Below, piece after piece: positions 5,713 to 15,814 of a stretch of 64,000 nucleotides of DNA. The notes beneath the pieces were generated by a model that saw only the letters and a program-made list of their open reading frames with translations, was not told the DNA's origin and did not search any database. The stretch lies in assembly GCF_020179605.1 (NCBI RefSeq), contig NZ_JAINZO010000001.1:1054001-1118000 (forward strand), written 5' to 3'. The stretch comes from Geomonas agri (GTDB taxonomy: Bacteria; Desulfobacterota; Desulfuromonadia; Geobacterales; Geobacteraceae). Each line of letters starts with the position of its first letter. The stretch's first letter is position 1. Position numbers and translations under genes: made by a program.

Positions 5713-6018
5713 ATGAAAAAACAACTTTTGGTCCTTATGGCGGTATCCCTTTTCGCGGCGGCAACACCGGTACTGGCTGAGGAGACCGCCAACCACGGCA
5801 CCATGCACAAAGGCGGCGATGCGCAGTGCGAGAAAGAGTGCGCGATGCTTCTGAAGGATTGCAATAACCAGGTCGACAGCATCCAGGACAGGATCAGGAA
5901 ACTGCAGGTCGCCATTAATGAGAAGGGCGCGAGCACCTACACTGTAGCAGAGCTGAAGATCCTCAAGAAGAAACTTCAGGAGGCAAACGACACGCTGCGC
6001 GTGTTGAACAAGCACTAG
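5713..6018 (+). CDS. small secreted hypothetical protein with helical body
   Basis: A 101-residue protein with a clear signal peptide (residues 1-22, cut after PVLA). The mature part is short, charged and helical. It starts with a His/Cys-containing segment (DAQCEKECAMLLKDC, Cys spaced 3 and 7 apart) and continues as a probable coiled coil (QDRIRKLQVAINEKG, then ELKILKKKLQEAND). An AAGGAGG ribosome-binding site sits 8 bases before the ATG and a terminator follows 49 bp after the stop, so it is probably monocistronic. I do not recognise a family. The Cys triplet could bind metal or form disulfides in the periplasm; that is speculation. Confidence 0.8.
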   Translation: MKKQLLVLMAVSLFAAATPVLAEETANHGTMHKGGDAQCEKECAMLLKDCNNQVDSIQDRIRKLQVAINEKGASTYTVAELKILKKKLQEANDTLRVLNKH

Positions 6019-6066
6019 TCGCAGCGACAACACCCGGTCATCGGCTTGGTGCGATGGCGACAAGGA

Positions 6067-6104
6067 AAGGGCCCGCCCCCTAGGTGGCGGGCCCTTCTTT
6101 GTTT
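6067..6104 (+). terminator. bidirectional-looking terminator between convergent genes
   Basis: Perfect 11-bp inverted repeat AAGGGCCCGCC / GGCGGGCCCTT (6067-6077 and 6086-6096) followed by T-rich sequence on the plus strand. It lies between the stop at 6018 and the minus-strand stop at 6133, so it can serve both genes. Confidence 0.85.
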
Positions 6105-6132
6105 CAGGCGCGAGCGTTCCGCGATACTCGGA

Positions 6133-7527
6133 TCACTTGATGGTGAAACCGCCGTCCTGGTTGGGAGCGATGGTGGCGTCCAGGTACTGGACCTGGTACC
6201 CCTTCTCCTTGAGGATGGTGTAGGCCATTTCGGCTCGGGTGCCGGTGTTGCAGTGCAGCACGACCTTCTTGTCCCTCGATATTTCTGCCAGGCGGTCGGC
6301 GATCTCGTCGGCCGGGATGTTGACTGCACCCTTTATCATCCCCGTTTTGGCAGCTTCGTCGGCGCCGCGCACGTCCAGCAGTTGCACCCCGGCCGGAATG
6401 CTGCGGGCGAAGGCCTGGAACTCATTGACCGGTATGGTGCCCGGCTTAAGTTTGGGAACGTAGACGACCTGGGTGGCCGGTTTCCCGGTGGCGGCCTGAT
6501 AACCCGCACCTTTCCAGGCGTCGTACCCGCCCGTGAGGACGCGTGGCCCTGGGTAGCCGGCCTTGATCAACTTGGCCGCGACACGTTCGGCGGCGCCGTC
6601 GCCTGAGGCATCGTAAATCACGACCGGAGGCTTGAACTCACGTTTAGGGAAGTTGACCAGGACCTGGTCCAGGTCCCGTTCCGGCACATTGGTGGCTCCC
6701 GGGATGAAACCTTGTCCGGTTTGTGACTCCGGGCGCACATCGAGGAGCACGAGCGAGAGCCCTTTGTCCAGCCACCCCTCTTTGAGGGACTGCGCGCTCA
6801 GCACCGTGAAGTTGCGGTTGTTCCATTCGGGAATGCCGTCGTGGAAGATTTTTACGTTGGTATAACCGAGTTTTTCCGCCTCACGGGCGGAAGAGGGGCT
6901 GAGCGCTCACGTGACGCCGGCACAGAAGTAGACCAGCAGTTCCCCCTTGTCCTTGGGGAGCTTGTCCAGGTTCTTCTGGAAAGCGGGGTAGGGGATATTG
7001 ATGGCGGTCGGGATTGTTCCCTCCTGGAACTTGGGCCCCGGCCGCGCGTCCACCAGGGTGTATTTCTCCTTCCCTGAGATCAGCTTTTCCATCTGCTCGA
7101 CCTTGAGCTGTTTTTCAACAGGCACTTTCATGGCCGGCTTGATGGATATCTCGCTGATTTTCTTAATGCCGTTACTCCCCTCCACGTAGGCGACGCGCAC
7201 CTCGTGTCCTTTCTTTATGGCCCGAAGCGACTTGTCCAGGTTTCCGGGGACGGCTGGGTTCACGATGCTAAGGGTGTCCTTGTCGAAGGCCACCACCTCG
7301 GCGCCGTCGTCGAACTTCAGTTGGATGGTCTGCGATTTCATGGCCACGTTGTCAAAAAAGGCGCGGAGTTGCCCTGGGGCAGGCTTGTGGCAGACCGCGC
7401 AGGACTTCACTTCCTTTACTTTTACCTTGGCCGGCGTTGCCTGGTCAGCTGCGAAGACCCCTGGAGTAGTGATAAGAGCGGTCGCTGACAGGATGGAAAG
7501 AGTACTGCACATTCCTCGAAGATACAT
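6133..7527 (-). CDS. secreted heme-c/triple-rhodanese protein with in-frame UGA (predicted selenocysteine)
   Basis: One 464-residue reading frame interrupted only by TGA at 6907-6909 (residue 207). Order: signal peptide (1-26), a CAVCH heme-c motif (Cys43, Cys46, His47), a linker domain, then rhodanese domain 1 ending YFCAGVT-UGA-ALSPSSA, where relatives carry Cys or Sec. Domain 2 (about 243-340) has IYDASGD where the active-site Cys loop should be, so it looks inactive. Domain 3 (about 360-464) has a normal loop HCNTGTRA (Cys426). AAAAGGAGGAG precedes the ATG. The part after the TGA has no Shine-Dalgarno of its own, and a hairpin follows the UGA at SECIS distance. Role: periplasmic sulfur, polysulfide or selenium transfer or redox chemistry, inferred. 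The alternative is a nonsense-mutated pseudogene. Confidence 0.75.
6874..6892 (-). promoter_or_regulatory. candidate bacterial SECIS hairpin downstream of the UGA
   Basis: On the mRNA, 14 bases after the UGA, a perfect 7-bp stem UUCCGCC / GGCGGAA closes a 5-base loop CGUGA that contains GU. Bacterial SECIS elements (E. coli fdhF is the model) place a short stem with G and U in its loop at about this distance after UGA for SelB binding. The fit is by eye, not by a covariance model. Confidence 0.6.
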
Positions 7528-7839
7528 CTCTTCTCCTCCTTTTAACTGAACTTAGATGCCTTTTGAACCGTATCGGCATTACTGTGCTGAGTTATAGCAG
7601 TTTGTTTACATCAAAGCAGTTGACACCTGACCACAGAAAACGTGAAGAGAGAGAAGGAAACCCTCTCATACCGACGTTTTCATACAGCCCACGGGCTATC
7701 TGCCAATGCTCTTATCCTTCTTGTCTTCTGACGCCATTGGGGTTATCTTCACTATTCCCCGGCGCGCCTGGCAGCCGGTTTCACCCCGCGCCCCCCTGGC
7801 ACTGAGGCCAGCCGAAACAACCATAAAGGAAGGGCTCTT
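7528..7839. other. divergent intergenic region, no gene seen
   Basis: This 312-bp stretch separates the selenoprotein-like gene (minus) from the MATE gene (plus) and must carry both promoters. The part next to the minus gene is AT-rich. I see no convincing promoter pair, operator or RNA gene. Confidence 0.4.
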
Positions 7840-9183
7840 TTGTCCGCAACGAACCACGTTCCGCGCCTGCTGAAACTGGCAGGCCCCATGATACTTTCCA
7901 CCTCCGCCATCACCCTGATGCAGATCGTGGACGCCATCGTCCTTTCCCGGCATTCGAGCGCCGCGGTGGCGGCCATCGGACCGGCCGGCCTGGCGGTAAT
8001 CCTGTTCCAGGGCTTTCTCTTCGGCACCGCCGGCTACGCAGGGACCTTTGTGGCCCACAACCATGGGCGCGGCGACATCGCCGGAGTGCGCAAATCGGCC
8101 TGGCTCGGCATCCACACTGCGCTCGCCTCCGGCGTCCTGGCGCTGGCCGTTGCCTGGCCGATCGGCCAACTCTTTCGTTTGGCGGGGCATACTCCTGACG
8201 TCGCGGGCGACGAGATCAGCTACTTCACCATCTGCATGGCGGGTTCGTTGTTTCCCGTGCTCGGGTCCGCTCTGGCGGGCTGGCTTTCCGGCATCGGGCG
8301 CCCTGCCATCGTCACCGCGGTGACCTTCTGTTCCTTCGTCATCAACGCACTACTCGCCTGGGGGCTGGTGCTGGGGGAGTGGGGCATGCCGCGACTCGGG
8401 ATAACCGGTGCCGCGCTGGCCACCGTCTCGGCCCAGGCCGTGGCCGCGTTACTCTACGCTGCCATCTTCGTCGTCGGCCATGGCTGCTCCGCCCGTAATG
8501 CCCGCCGCCCAGACCGCGTCGAACTCTTCCGTTTCCTGAAACTCGCCATGCCCATGGGACTGCGCATCAGCGGCGAGCTCCTGGCCTGGACCCTGTTCCT
8601 GGTTGTGCTCGGCCGGCTGGGAACCGCCGAACTGGCGGCCTCCAGCATCGCGTTCCGGATCAACGGTATGGCCTTCTTCCCCGCGCTCGGCCTCGGGCAG
8701 GCGGCGGGCATCCTTGTGGGACACGCTCGCGGGGCAGGGGAGGACGACGAGGTCCCGGCCATCGCCTCCCAGTCGCTGCTGGTGTGCGAAGTCTGGATGC
8801 TGGTGATGGCGGTTCTCTTCGCCACGTGCTCCGCTCCACTCATCTCCGTCTTCGCCGGTCATGGCCGGGAGTCTGTCCAGATCATCGAAACCGGTTCCGT
8901 CATCATGAAGTTCGTGGCCTTTTACTGCCTCTTCGATGCCGCCAACGTCATGACCGGCTGCGTGCTCTCCTCCGCCGGCGATACCAATTGGGTCGCCCGT
9001 ACCTTCGTCTATTCCTCCGCTGGCTTCCTGCTTTGCCTGTGGCTGATTGACAGCTTCATGCCCAGCCTTATCGCCGAGTGGACCCTCGGCACTTGTTTCG
9101 TCCTGTTCACCGCCGTTGTCTGGTCGCTGCGCTTTCATTCTGGCGCCTGGAGAACGATCCGGGTGTTGCACGACTCACACTAA
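7840..9183 (+). CDS. MATE family multidrug/cation antiporter
   Basis: A 447-residue integral membrane protein with about 12 hydrophobic helices in two similar halves. The N-terminus (LAGPMILSTSAITLMQIVD) and the second-half repeat (LKLAMPMGLRISGELLAW, then LGLGQAAGILVGHARGA) are typical of NorM/MATE exporters, which use Na+ or H+ gradients to extrude drugs or metabolites. Start chosen at TTG 7840 with AAAGGAAGGG about 7 bases upstream; no ATG is available before the first helix. It appears monocistronic. Substrate unknown. Confidence 0.9.
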   Translation: MSATNHVPRLLKLAGPMILSTSAITLMQIVDAIVLSRHSSAAVAAIGPAGLAVILFQGFLFGTAGYAGTFVAHNHGRGDIAGVRKSAWLGIHTALASGVLALAVAWPIGQLFRLAGHTPDVAGDEISYFTICMAGSLFPVLGSALAGWLSGIGRPAIVTAVTFCSFVINALLAWGLVLGEWGMPRLGITGAALATVSAQAVAALLYAAIFVVGHGCSARNARRPDRVELFRFLKLAMPMGLRISGELLAWTLFLVVLGRLGTAELAASSIAFRINGMAFFPALGLGQAAGILVGHARGAGEDDEVPAIASQSLLVCEVWMLVMAVLFATCSAPLISVFAGHGRESVQIIETGSVIMKFVAFYCLFDAANVMTGCVLSSAGDTNWVARTFVYSSAGFLLCLWLIDSFMPSLIAEWTLGTCFVLFTAVVWSLRFHSGAWRTIRVLHDSH

Positions 9184-9531
9184 GGCTGCCCGGTGCCGTC
9201 AGACTATTCCCTACCTGGCTGCTGTAGAATCTCTCCTGTCCTTACTCCAATCGCCCTCTATCCCCGCTTTTTTGTTCCAGTACTGCGCCACCATTGACAG
9301 CGTGATGCGGTTCTTTGTTTCGTGTATTCAGTAATTTGCACTGTGTGACCTTTTCCTGTTGTCATAGGAGTGAACAAGGCAACACATAAACCTACTTATT
9401 GTGTGTGCAATTAATATAAATTTTGTTGACTGTTTTGGTTATATAAGATACAACCTCACACAAGCATGGATCTGGGGTTTTATACTTTTCCCCGATCCCA
9501 GCACTGAATCGCATCTGGAAAGGAAGCCGCA
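9184..9531. other. intergenic region upstream of cysH
   Basis: Contains no gene. The last 130 bp are AT-rich and hold the probable cysHDN promoter. I found no recognisable riboswitch (no SAM-type conserved core). Confidence 0.4.
9426..9454 (+). promoter_or_regulatory. putative sigma-70 promoter for cysH-cysD-cysN
   Basis: TTGACT (9426-9431), 17-bp spacer, TACAAC (9449-9454). The -35 is near consensus and the -10 matches 4 of 6. It lies in an AT-rich region about 78 bp before the cysH start. Confidence 0.45.
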
Positions 9532-10224
9532 ATGAACGCTGTGCCTGAAATTCCCGCCGACGCAACCGCCCAGGATATCTTGCGCCTCGGCCTTGAAGCC
9601 GCCCAAGGACCGGTGAAGCTCGCCTGCTCCTTCTCGCTGGAGGATGTCGCCATTATCGAACTGGCCAAGGAGGCCGGCCTGGAGATCGGCGTTTTCGCCC
9701 TCGATACCGGCCGGCTCAACGAGGAAACCTACGAGGTCGCCGACGCCATCACCGAGCGATACCGGATCCAGATTGACTGGTTTTTCCCCAAGCATGAAGC
9801 TGTAGAGAAGCTGGAGCGCGAGAAGGGGCTTTTCTCCTTCAGGGAGTCCCTGGAAAACCGCCACGAGTGCTGCCACATCCGTAAGGTGGAACCGCTGGGG
9901 CGCGCGCTGCAGGGCCTGGCCGGCTGGATCACCGGCATGCGCCGCGACCACAACGTCACCCGCACCGACCTGAAGGCCATCGAACTGGACCAGTTGAACG
10001 GCGGCATCCTCAAACTCAACCCACTGCTGGACTGGAGCGAGGCCCAGCTCCTGGAGTTCGTCAAGGAGCGCCGCCTGCCGCAGAACCGCCTCCTGAAGCA
10101 AGGCTACCGCTCCATCGGCTGCGCCCCTTGTACTAGGGCGGTTCAGCCCGGCGAGGACGCCCGCGCTGGCCGTTGGTGGTGGGAGAACCCTGAGCACAAG
10201 GAGTGTGGCCTGCACCGCAGGTAA
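9532..10224 (+). CDS. cysH: adenylylsulfate (APS) reductase, assimilatory
   Basis: Reduces APS (or PAPS) to sulfite in the cytoplasm for cysteine synthesis. 230 residues. The iron-sulfur type is indicated by the Cys pair at 113-114 (HECCHIRK) and CAPC at 197-200, the four [4Fe-4S] ligands of APS-using enzymes. The catalytic C-terminal motif is KECGLH (Cys225). The N-terminal PAPS-reductase fold is seen in LACSFSLEDVAIIELA and FALDTGRLNEETYE. An AAAGGAAG ribosome-binding site precedes the ATG. It leads the cysH-cysD-cysN cluster; no cysC kinase is present, which agrees with APS rather than PAPS as substrate. Confidence 0.93.
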   Translation: MNAVPEIPADATAQDILRLGLEAAQGPVKLACSFSLEDVAIIELAKEAGLEIGVFALDTGRLNEETYEVADAITERYRIQIDWFFPKHEAVEKLEREKGLFSFRESLENRHECCHIRKVEPLGRALQGLAGWITGMRRDHNVTRTDLKAIELDQLNGGILKLNPLLDWSEAQLLEFVKERRLPQNRLLKQGYRSIGCAPCTRAVQPGEDARAGRWWWENPEHKECGLHRR

Positions 10225-10292
10225 CAGGGTAGGGGACGACGCGCCCGGCGCTGATAAGCTCCGGCACACGAAGATCGATACGGGATAACGCC

Positions 10293-11198
10293 ATGAAGAA
10301 AAATCTGACCCATCTGCAGCAACTCGAAGCCGAAAGCATCCACATCATCCGCGAGGTGGTGGCCGAGTTCGACAACCCGGTGATGCTCTACTCCATCGGC
10401 AAGGATTCCGCGGTGATGCTGCACTTGGCCCGCAAGGCCTTTTACCCGGCACCGCCGCCTTTCCCGCTGTTGCACGTCGACACCACCTGGAAATTCCGCG
10501 ACATGATCGAGTTCCGCGGCCGCATGGCAAAGGAGTCCGGCATGGAACTGCTGGTGCATGTGAACGAGGACGGGGTGAAAAAGGGGGTCTCTCCCTTCAC
10601 CCACGGCTCCGCGCTCTACACCGACGTGATGAAGACTGAGGGGCTTAAGCAGGCTCTCGACAAGTATAAGTTCGACGCGGCCTTTGGCGGTGCACGCCGC
10701 GACGAGGAGAAGTCCCGCGCCAAGGAGCGCATCTTCTCCTTCAGGAGCGCCAATCACCGCTGGGACCCGAAGAACCAGCGCCCCGAACTCTGGAGTTTGT
10801 ACAATACCCGCGTCAAGCCGGGCGAGAGCATCCGCGTCTTCCCGCTCTCCAACTGGACCGAACTGGACATCTGGCAGTACATCCACCTGGAAGAGATACC
10901 CATAGTGCCGCTTTACTATGCGGCGGAGCGTCCCGTGGTTGAGCGTGACGGCATGCTGATCATGGTCGACGACGACCGGCTGGAATTGCAACCGGGCGAG
11001 AAGGTCGAGTACAAGTCGGTCCGCTTCCGCACTTTGGGCTGCTATCCGCTCACCGGCGCGGTCGAGTCAGAGGCCGACACGCTCCCCGAGATCATCCAGG
11101 AAATGCTGCTTACCCGCACCTCCGAGCGCCAGGGGCGCCTGATCGACCACGACCAGGCCGGTTCGATGGAGAAGAAGAAACAGGAAGGATACTTCTAA
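10293..11198 (+). CDS. cysD: sulfate adenylyltransferase subunit 2
   Basis: Small catalytic subunit of ATP sulfurylase, which makes APS from sulfate and ATP together with CysN. 301 residues, the family's usual length. The PP-loop motif is seen in [19 protein letters not shown] near residue 30, followed by [17 protein letters not shown] and the conserved [17 protein letters not shown] block. The C-terminus [18 protein letters not shown] is also typical. The gene is 68 bp after cysH, and its last base overlaps the A of the cysN start codon, so translation is coupled. Confidence 0.96.
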
Positions 11199-12850
11199 TG
11201 GCACATCAATCAGAACTGATCGAGAAAGATATCCTTGCCTACCTGAAGAGCCAGGAGGAGAAGTCGTTGCTTCGCTTCATCACCTGCGGCAGCGTGGATG
11301 ACGGCAAGAGCACCCTGATCGGGCGCCTGTTGTGGGATTCCAAGATGGTCTTCGAGGACCAGTTGGCTGCGCTCGAGGCGGACAGCAAGAAAGTGGGGAC
11401 CCAGGGGGGCGCCATCGACTATGCGCTCCTTCTAGACGGGCTGCAGGCCGAGCGTGAGCAGGGCATCACCATCGACGTCGCCTACCGCTTCTTCTCCACC
11501 GCCCGCAGGAAGTTCATCGTGGCCGACACCCCGGGACACGAGCAGTACACCCGCAACATGGTGACCGGCGCCTCGACGGCCAAGGTGGCCGTGATCCTGG
11601 TCGACGCGCGCAAGGGGCTCTTGACCCAGACCCGCCGGCACAGCTTCCTGGTTTCCCTGGTTGGCATCAAGCACGTCGTCCTGGCCATCAACAAGATGGA
11701 CCTGATCGACTACGACGAGGAGAAGTTCCGCGCCATCGAGGCGGACTACCGCGAGTTCGCCGCGCCGCTAGGGTTCACCAGCATCACCGCGCTCCCGATT
11801 TCCGCGCTGAACGGCGACAACATCATCGACAAGAGCGGCGAGACCCCGTGGTACCAAGGACCGACCTTGATGCACTTCCTGGAGACGGTGCAGGTCGAGG
11901 ACGACCGCGACGAGCAGCCGTTCCGCCTCCCGGTGCAGTGGGTGAACCGTCCCAACCTCGACTTCCGCGGTTTCTGCGGCACCGTCGCCTCCGGCACCGT
12001 CCGTCCCGGCGACGAGATCCGGGTCGCCTCCTCGGGCCAGACCAGCAAGGTCGCCCGCATCGTCACCTTCAACGGCGACCTGGATGAGGCGGTGGCGGGG
12101 CAGGCGGTGACGCTCACCCTGGAGGACGAGATCGACATCAGCCGCGGGGACATGCTGACCCGTCCCGAGGCGCCGCCGCTCTACACCAGGCATCCTGAGG
12201 CACACTTGGTCTGGATGCACGACGAGCCGCTGCAGCCTGGCCAGCTTTACCTGGTGAAGACGGCAACCGGCGTGACGCCGGGCCGGGTGACCGCAGTGCA
12301 ATACGCGGTGGACGTGAACACGTTGGAGCAGAAGCTGGTGAGCACCCTGGGGCTGAACGAGATCGGCCTGGCGCGCATCGAGCTGGACCGCCCGGTGTCC
12401 TTCGACCCGTACGGCACCAACCGTGACACCGGCAGTTTCATCCTCATCGACCGTTTCACCAACGCGACCGTGGCGGCGGGGATGGTGCTGAACGCTCCCG
12501 ACGAGTCGCAGCGGGCGCACCTCTCGGCGGGCGAGAGTAACCCATGGGCTCCGCGGCATATCACCCTCGACGCGGTGGCCGCGACCAACCTGAACCTGGT
12601 CGATTTGACCGAAGAGAAGGGGCTTTTTATCCTCGATCTCGCCCAGAGCATCCATGATTATCTGGGCAAGGGAAACCGCATCCTGATCAGGCTGCGCGAT
12701 CTGTCACAACTGGAGCCGGTGGCGCAGCTGGCCTACGACCATGAGCTTGCCTTTGAATTTGACCGAAGCGGTGACGGTGTGAGCATCCTGCTCTTCAAGC
12801 GCGGAACGACGCCGGCAAAAGGGTACGGTGACGACGGCACCGGCATCTAG
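11198..12850 (+). CDS. cysN: sulfate adenylyltransferase subunit 1 (GTPase)
   Basis: Regulatory GTPase subunit of ATP sulfurylase. GTP-hydrolysis motifs are clear: [16 protein letters not shown] (P-loop), [13 protein letters not shown] (switch II) and AINKMDL (NKxD). EF-Tu-like barrels 2 and 3 follow. At 550 residues it is somewhat longer than the usual 470-ish of E. coli CysN. The extra C-terminal 75-80 residues do not contain a P-loop, so this is not a CysN-CysC fusion. The start overlaps the end of cysD by one base. A terminator follows 13 bp after the stop. Confidence 0.95.
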
Positions 12851-14923: not shown

Positions 14924-15814
14924 ATGGCTATTACGCTGAGGCAGTTGGAGATCTTCGAGAAAGTTGCGATGTGCGGGCAGGTGACGCAAGCGAGCAATCA
15001 ACTGCTCTTGACGCAGTCTGCGGTCAGCATGGCGCTCGCGGAACTGGAGCGGTTGTCGGGGGCGCCGCTCTTCGAGCGTTCCGGGCGGCGGCTCTATTTA
15101 AACGATCGCGGTCGGCAGTTGCTCCCCGAGGCCCGGGAGGTGCTGGCAAGGGTGCACAGGATAGAGAGGTTCCTGGAGGAATCGATCGGGACCCCGACGG
15201 GAACGCTGGTAGTCGGTGCGAGCACTACCATCGGCAATTACCTCCTTCCTGCAATGGTCGGCGAGTTCTCGCGTCTCTACCCTGGCGCCAAGGCTCTTTT
15301 GCAGGTGGGCAACGCGCTCCAGGTAGAGCAGGGGGTCGAGGCGGGCGAGCTGGATCTCGGGTTAATCGAAGGGCTGCAGCACCTCCCGTCCCTCGAGGCC
15401 TCCCCTTGGCGGCGGGATGAATTGGTGTTGATCGTGGGGAAGGATCACCCTTGGGCATCGCTGGGGCGAGCGACGCCGGACATGCTGAAGGATGCGGCCT
15501 GGATCATGAGGGAAACGGGATCCGGCACCCGGGAGATTTTTGAAGCCGCCATGGAGAGGGCAGGGGTGAGCTACGCGGTGGCTCTTGAACTGGGGCACAC
15601 GGAGGCGATCAAGAAGGCGGTGGAAGCTGGGTTAGGGGTAGGGTGCATCTCGCGCATGGCCGTGCAACGTGAGCTCGACCAGGGATGGCTGTACGAGGTG
15701 GCCAATCCGGTCGACCTGCAGCGAACCCTGTTGATCGTAACCAGGAAAAACGACTATCGCAGCGCCTTGTTCAAGGCTTTCCTGGATCTGCTGGAAAACA
15801 ATAAAGAGCTTTAG
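14924..15814 (+). CDS. LysR family transcriptional regulator (YeiE-like)
   Basis: A 296-residue regulator. The N-terminal winged helix-turn-helix is seen in LRQLEIFEKVAMCGQVTQASNQLLLTQSAVS-type sequence (residues 4-35), followed by ALFERSGRRLYLNDRGRQLL-like wing residues. The effector domain (about 90-296) has the family's periplasmic-binding fold, with ASTTIGNYLLPAMVGEF at its start. Divergent from the exporter gene with 112 bp between the starts, it probably controls that gene and itself. The co-effector may be sulfite or cysteine-related by analogy with YeiE; that is inference. The ribosome-binding site is weak. Confidence 0.9.
   Translation: MAITLRQLEIFEKVAMCGQVTQASNQLLLTQSAVSMALAELERLSGAPLFERSGRRLYLNDRGRQLLPEAREVLARVHRIERFLEESIGTPTGTLVVGASTTIGNYLLPAMVGEFSRLYPGAKALLQVGNALQVEQGVEAGELDLGLIEGLQHLPSLEASPWRRDELVLIVGKDHPWASLGRATPDMLKDAAWIMRETGSGTREIFEAAMERAGVSYAVALELGHTEAIKKAVEAGLGVGCISRMAVQRELDQGWLYEVANPVDLQRTLLIVTRKNDYRSALFKAFLDLLENNKEL

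Follow-up and report, generated by a model that had tools for sequence, protein, structure and literature searches.

We analysed a 64,000-nucleotide stretch of the Geomonas agri genome (hereafter the window; the genome comprises 4.68 Mb in seven contigs, with a stated completeness of 100% and contamination of 1.85%) and found on its minus strand a gene, running from position 7527 to 6133, that forms a single 464-residue frame whose sole break is a UGA codon at 6909-6907 (residue 207). Comparison with homologues makes it almost certain that this UGA is decoded as selenocysteine (Sec). The predicted product is quite probably an exported (periplasmic) protein in which an OB-like domain bearing a single heme c precedes three rhodanese domains, and we hold with similar confidence the explanation of the gene as a whole, namely an exported heme-c triple-rhodanese selenoprotein that carries Cys202-x4-Sec207 and Cys426. 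A redox-type mechanism for this protein is a good possibility rather than a probability.

The layout with a single in-frame TGA is common to 10 Geobacterales genomes, including that of Geomonas agri. The preliminary description of this DNA was right about the 464 codons between 6133 and 7527 and the single UGA break, but it left out the strand; read on the plus strand, the same interval contains four in-frame TGA codons and was rejected as a gene. On the minus strand the complete gene with Sec207 (6133-7527) ends at its own TGA stop at 6133-6135, and its ATG (7525-7527) is preceded by a Shine-Dalgarno-like sequence, AAGGAGGAG, at 7533-7541, recognized by eye. Inspection of the translation reveals a probable Sec-type signal peptide (residues 1-26; 7450-7527), and alignment of homologues places a heme-c motif, CAVCH, at residues 43-47 (7387-7401), with C43, C46 and H47 invariant in all 34 aligned homologues. 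By sequence, with export judged by eye, the protein thus has the exported CXXCH of a monoheme c-type cytochrome. An AlphaFold2 model based on the 34-row alignment had a mean pLDDT of 88. Residues 37-136 modelled alone gave an OB-like barrel (mean pLDDT 84), from which we delimit an OB-like beta domain at residues 48-135 (7123-7386). When this N-terminal part was used in a fold search, CusF was among the OB-like folds matched (best Foldseek E 9e-4; best Z 8.6, which is the tool's "possible common arrangement" level), and no function was drawn from the fold. H108, within this domain, is His in 31 of the 34 aligned homologues and Gln in three, and is a candidate second heme ligand.

The remainder of the chain matches PF00581 over three stretches (155 bits, cut-off 22). 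Rhodanese domain 1 (residues 139-243; 6799-7113), supported by Pfam, selenoprotein models and the AlphaFold2 model, contains the C-x4-U loop. Rhodanese domain 2 (residues 244-350; 6478-6798), delimited by its Pfam match and by alignment, has the loop YDASGDG, in which Asp306 (D in 33 of 34 rows) lies about where the active-site Cys would be; judged by this loop, the domain is probably inactive, being without the catalytic Cys. Rhodanese domain 3 (residues 362-452; 6172-6444), delimited by alignment, has the canonical loop CNTGTR, and its Cys426 (6250-6252) is invariant in 34 of 34 aligned rows. The catalytic Cys of the PF00581 family is therefore represented by Cys202 and Cys426. The heme-c motif, the three rhodanese domains and the division into a probably inactive and a normal Cys domain are all as the preliminary description had proposed.

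In order to determine how the UGA at 6907-6909 is read, we compared the gene with its relatives. Among 97 genomes examined, 10 (Geomonas agri included) encode an orthologue bearing a single in-frame TGA, and in an alignment of 30 loci all 10 TGA codons fall in the same column, which is occupied by Cys in the other 20. In a scan that covered named genomes of bacteria and archaea, 291 relatives were confirmed, of which the best 80 were kept. Among these best 80 of 291, residue 207 is Sec at 16 loci and Cys at 64, several genomes being represented in both sets, so that the proposal that homologues should have Cys or Sec at this residue is borne out in 80 of 80. The 16 Sec loci are six from Geobacteraceae (Geomonas, Geomobilimonas, Citrifermentans), nine from Nitrospirota and one from an uncultured bacterium; within the same best 80 of 291, the closest named relative of the protein is that of Geomonas azotofigens, with 86% identity. 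A more distant Geomonas homologue (L048, G004:C15:400755-402086) has the heme motif and Ser in the 207 column, and both pair cysteines (C202, C207) are missing from its rhodanese domain 1. The alignment of a UGA with Cys or Sec in homologues, by which bacterial selenoproteins are recognized, is thus observed here.

The genome also encodes the machinery for Sec insertion: selA, selB, selD and tRNA-Sec (selC; 74.9 bits, cut-off 47), the four genes on which the preliminary description had made its reading depend, are all present. The selD gene itself (C2:65544-66458) has an in-frame TGA, and Geomonas agri SelD is probably a selenoprotein too. Within the window, an Rfam scan at gathering scores returned nothing beyond two tRNA matches. 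All 10 Geobacterales Sec genomes gave a SelB match, as did 9 of the 10 other Sec genomes, the exception being G106; none was obtained in the three Geothrix genomes tested, which have the Cys form.

It is very improbable that UGA207 is a true stop, separating a 206-residue heme protein from a second protein, or that the gene is a pseudogene or contains a sequencing error. Under translation table 11 the region does divide into two ORFs, of 206 and 223 amino acids. Against this, the same UGA recurs in 10 Geobacterales genomes, nine Nitrospirota loci and one uncultured bacterium, always opposite Cys, and the sequence downstream is under constraint (dN/dS of 0.09-0.23 after the UGA and 0.05-0.16 before it, in five comparisons). 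No Shine-Dalgarno-like sequence was seen by eye ahead of the downstream GTG at 6804, in agreement with the earlier remark that no new ribosome-binding site follows the TGA. Sequencing error, in which TGC or TGT would have been misread as TGA, is excluded because independent genomes have the identical TGA. Taken with the hairpin comparison below, the Sec/Cys column and the sel genes support the selenoprotein reading with which this analysis began.

A hairpin lies immediately downstream (6874-6892), identified by folding, comparison and published criteria. Its stem joins +15 to +21 with +27 to +33 after the UGA in exactly 7 bp around the loop CGUGA, and the perfect 7-bp hairpin with a GU-containing loop 14 nt past the UGA that had been reported earlier is therefore exact. 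The bacterial SECIS model, as given in the part of a 2026 review consulted here (PMC13188914), has a loop of 3-9 nt, a stem of 4-16 bp, a G in the first two loop positions and a loop situated 16-37 nt past the UGA. The hairpin falls within these limits, with a loop of 5 nt that starts 21 nt past the UGA, a stem of 7 bp and G as the second loop nucleotide. We reduced 26 Sec entries to 20 that are distinct over 60 nt; all seven pairs form in 15 of these and six of seven in the other five, whereas among 60 distinct Cys homologues none forms all seven and five form six. The mean MFE is -13.4 for Sec and -8.6 for Cys sequences (p 1.6e-8, although the sequences are related and not independent).

These differences do not make the hairpin a stand-alone proof of Sec, a use of it that we rejected. 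When synonymous codons of the window gene were redrawn, all seven pairs arose in 6.7% of 20,000 draws (P 0.067) and equal folding stability in 28% of 2,000 draws; when each of the 20 distinct Sec genes was redrawn 500 times, the corresponding stability fractions ranged from 0.002 to 0.72 and were below 0.05 in just 3 of 20. The hairpin alone is weak evidence, and the argument against chance rests on conservation of the column. In an alignment of 19 distinct 42-nt sequences five of the seven stem pairs are invariant. All 19 sequences keep the pair +18/+30, whose two nucleotides both stand third in their codons, as C-G, U-A or U-G; the pair +15/+33 swaps between C-G and U-A and is broken in 5 of 19. 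The G at +23 (second loop position) is kept in 18 of 19, though the amino acid encoded there varies. Against 500 shuffles of the 19 rows, the covariation score was reached in 0, the number of cells changed on both sides in 1 and the number of cells paired in 7; the counts of double-change pairs (233/500) and of further pair types (239/500) were no better than in shuffles. A structure slid by +3 has two double-change pairs and six such cells, compared with two and seven at the real position, and 58.6% of its cells are paired, compared with 96.2%. The hairpin supports the case for Sec without carrying it.

The nucleophile of a canonical rhodanese sits directly after the strand, a position that we take to be occupied here by Cys202 (6922-6924). 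This residue is C in 33 of 34 aligned rows and in 80 of 80 loci (best 80 of 291), and Sec207 lies five residues further. The earlier placement of Sec in the rhodanese active-site loop therefore stands as far as the loop is concerned (YFCAGVT-U-ALSPSSA), but the canonical catalytic position is that of the conserved Cys202. In BH2092 (3nhv), a solved rhodanese-like protein, a C-x4-C loop aligns with the loop of domain 1. Because Cys202 is kept, because BH2092 has C-x4-C and because the selenoprotein TsoB shows the same spacing, we regard Sec207 as the partner of Cys202 and not its replacement. Judged from these alignments, Sec207 is the second member of a C-x4-U pair that is C-x4-C in other homologues.

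In order to follow the history of this residue, we masked the Sec residue in a set of 87 proteins and built from it a quick tree, with long branches present, on which Sec needs at least two changes. A single origin, with all Sec rows together, was rejected on the same quick, long-branched tree (p-AU 0.014). On these two grounds the Sec forms of Geobacteraceae and Nitrospirota look independent, and the tree suggests that the form in Nitrospirota is probably a second gain. Alternatively, Sec may have been gained once, long ago, and then lost many times, or it may have been transferred.

Five rhodanese selenoprotein forms are catalogued in the consulted part of the 2026 review (PMC13188914). The statement of the preliminary description that such selenoproteins are already known is thus correct, and the heme-c/triple-rhodanese arrangement that it did not recognize appears undescribed: we found none in the open-access literature, and the consulted part of that review mentions no heme for its forms. 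Form 1, for which the same source cites Zhang and Gladyshev 2005, has the motif UxxS, one Sec and PF00581, with WP_010941598.1 as an example. The Geomonas protein has U-A-L-S in its rhodanese domain and so carries UxxS. The comparison with WP_010941598.1 extends to the listed motif and PF00581, as distinct from architecture; if that protein shared the heme-c/triple-rhodanese architecture, the family would not be new. TsoB (NF045694), described as rhodanese/DsbD fusion-like, is listed with the motif UxxxxU (PMC13188914, consulted part). Residues 145-246 match its rhodanese part, and its U-x4-U spacing equals that of C-x4-U here. The Geomonas protein nevertheless falls outside TsoB, scoring 53.2 bits against a cut-off of 805 and having C-x4-U with one Sec, whereas TsoB has two Sec and is by name a DsbD fusion. 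The best match to an NCBIfam selenoprotein model was NF041203 (rhodanese_LYCAU, rhodanese-related (seleno)protein; 126 positions) at 80.6 bits, below its cut-off of 115; the motif listed for it is CxU (PMC13188914, consulted part), with Sec two residues past Cys, whereas in the Geomonas protein the distance is five.

The closest architectural counterparts are the Cys orthologues of Geobacterales, Geothrix, Anaeromyxobacter and Betaproteobacteria, which, in the rows aligned, share the heme motif and three rhodanese domains at 39-56% identity and differ in having Cys at 207, with the complete hairpin in 0 of 60 distinct sequences. Three Cys homologues (L080, L099 and L133, around 8001-9269) have stop-to-stop frames of 813, 625 and 821 residues, compared with about 470 in most, possibly through N-terminal additions. 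We also observed five triple rhodaneses without CXXCH (L041-L045, in G071, G073, G087, G063 and G059), lipoprotein-like by eye, each with one in-frame TGA in the loop CGG(I/P)TU and a predicted hairpin about 14-16 nt past the TGA; no ext family member was found among 10 chosen ORFs adjoining two of these Sec paralogues (L041 and L042). Two further rhodaneses (L046 and L047) have a single domain and measure 131 and 138 residues between stops; they too have an in-frame TGA in this loop (CASPTU and CNGFSU), and both score below the NF041203 and TsoB cut-offs.

ExtH (NF040901) is an exported rhodanese-like lipoprotein of about 49 kDa from a Geobacter selenite/tellurite cluster, according to the consulted parts of PMC5877670 and PMC6148476. 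The Geomonas protein resembles it in being exported and rhodanese-like, and membership was rejected at 12.8 bits against a cut-off of 200. EanB and PDB 1yt8, which were among the best Foldseek matches, likewise have multiple rhodanese domains per chain, but whole-chain TM-scores are about 0.2. We know of no heme or Sec in either. The octaheme cytochrome TIGR04315, listed as a selenoprotein family in the consulted part of PMC13188914, was matched in 16 of the 20 Sec genomes, with no in-frame stop among the matches listed, so that they show no direct link to the present gene.

Next we examined the genomic neighborhood. On one side of the rhodanese gene lies a convergent small gene (5713-6018) that matched no family, and on the other a divergent MATE transporter, past which lie the sulfate assimilation genes cysH, cysD and cysN (9532-12850). 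Between the small gene and the rhodanese gene, a GC-rich inverted repeat followed by a T-rich stretch (6064-6106, by eye) looks like a terminator. In seven Geobacterales-type Sec loci (L056-L062; the search was confined to these), cysH occurs in four (L056, L058, L059, L061) and cysN in three. The orientation of the cysHDN genes is divergent to that of the rhodanese gene, four to five of the seven loci also keep unrelated genes on its other side, and L060 lacks them all; we therefore regard their proximity as synteny of close relatives and give it zero functional weight. Elsewhere in the window, a LysR-type regulator (14924-15814) adjoins a YeiH-like transporter; among the models matching this regulator, 'selenium metabolism-associated LysR' ranks third, at 194.6 bits and below the cut-off of 250.

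The Cys homologues have a different neighborhood. One BLAST cluster of molybdopterin enzymes, to which the PhsA-like (thiosulfate/polysulfide-reductase-like) enzyme of locus L119 belongs, is represented in 24 of 64 Cys loci versus 0 of 16 Sec loci (best 80 of 291; flanks are shorter on small contigs), in 20 Cys loci on the same strand and within 6 kb, and NrfD, FeS, porin and multiheme genes often accompany it. A family-model scan of one such cluster, at L119 (one gene from L126), identified a PhsA-like Moco enzyme (505 bits, cut-off 694), an NrfD subunit, an FeS subunit resembling DsrO/TtrB, an ExtM cytochrome above its cut-off, a cytochrome with distant similarity to the TIGR04315 octaheme family and a DUF3373 protein guessed to be a porin. 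These neighbors point to redox reactions of sulfur compounds at the cell envelope. The Geomonas agri genome contains no PhsA-like match at the family cut-off. It has three molybdopterin-enzyme matches with one in-frame TGA each (C1:1154043-1154945, C1:1257759-1258097 and C2:1318734-1319105), possibly formate-dehydrogenase-type selenoproteins.

Since the window gene seems solitary and the PhsA-like neighbor is found in none of the 16 Sec loci, we drew on the Cys homologues in considering function. The conserved heme motif and C-x4-C/U pair, together with the sulfur-redox neighbors of the Cys homologues, lead us to favor a heme-linked oxidoreductase, and the likely role is that of a periplasmic heme-wired polysulfide or persulfide oxidoreductase. 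The export signal, heme motif, Sec and two active loops are seen in the sequence; the following scheme adds, by inference, a persulfide, a Se-S bond, a direction and partners. SelB, tRNA-Sec and the hairpin past UGA207 would insert Sec. With polysulfide, thiosulfate or a partner protein as the donor, Cys202 would accept sulfane sulfur and form a persulfide, which Sec207 would attack, releasing sulfide and leaving a Cys-S-Se-Sec bond. That bond could then be reduced by the heme, or by a cytochrome via the heme. In the reverse direction sulfide would be oxidised to bound sulfane sulfur. Cys426 may store or relay the sulfur, and Sec at 207 would make the resolving step faster. Weighed against this scheme are the loss of C202 and C207 in L048 and the Gln at H108 in 3 of 34 homologues.

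The main rival to a heme-linked oxidoreductase is a sulfur carrier. The selenoprotein could be a plain sulfurtransferase in which Cys202 (or Sec207) and Cys426 relay sulfane sulfur, with the heme structural or redox-sensing, much as Sud serves as a polysulfide carrier in Wolinella. We consider this a serious possibility that stays short of probable. It accords with the three rhodanese domains in the chain, with the presence of the sulfurtransferases 1yt8 and EanB (persulfide Cys412) among the closest solved multi-rhodaneses and with the resemblance of the L119 neighbors to Phs/Ttr/Dsr-type enzymes. However, one nucleophile would suffice for such a relay, yet none of the 80 loci (best 80 of 291) has lost the second residue of the pair, and all 34 aligned homologues retain the heme motif. 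It is unlikely that the protein instead acts on selenium or tellurium oxyanions. The Geobacter ext cluster does combine the rhodanese-like ExtH with a predicted cytochrome selenoprotein, ExtKL (consulted parts of PMC5877670 and PMC6148476), and the L119 locus has its ExtM cytochrome, but the ExtH score is far below the cut-off and none of the 10 neighboring window ORFs scanned matches any ext family at E 1e-5.

The fullest form of the favored reading is a heme-wired, Sec-dependent sulfane-sulfur oxidoreductase tied to the cytochrome network of metal reducers, with Sec gained at least twice (in Geobacteraceae and in Nitrospirota), and we advance it tentatively. If it is true, a C-x4-U site and heme c in one polypeptide would couple periplasmic polysulfide or persulfide reduction (or sulfide oxidation) to cytochromes. 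Annotation without Sec decoding would turn the gene into two short proteins and hide an exported heme protein that occurs in Geobacterales, in Nitrospirota and, as the Cys form, in several further groups. The Sec and Cys forms are directly comparable because both exist in named strains. Rhodanese domains are usually regarded as sulfur carriers; the present protein suggests that, in a chain that also contains a heme and a Cys-Sec pair, they may work as redox enzymes. Selenium supply would then be tied to electron transfer and to the sulfur chemistry of the periplasm.
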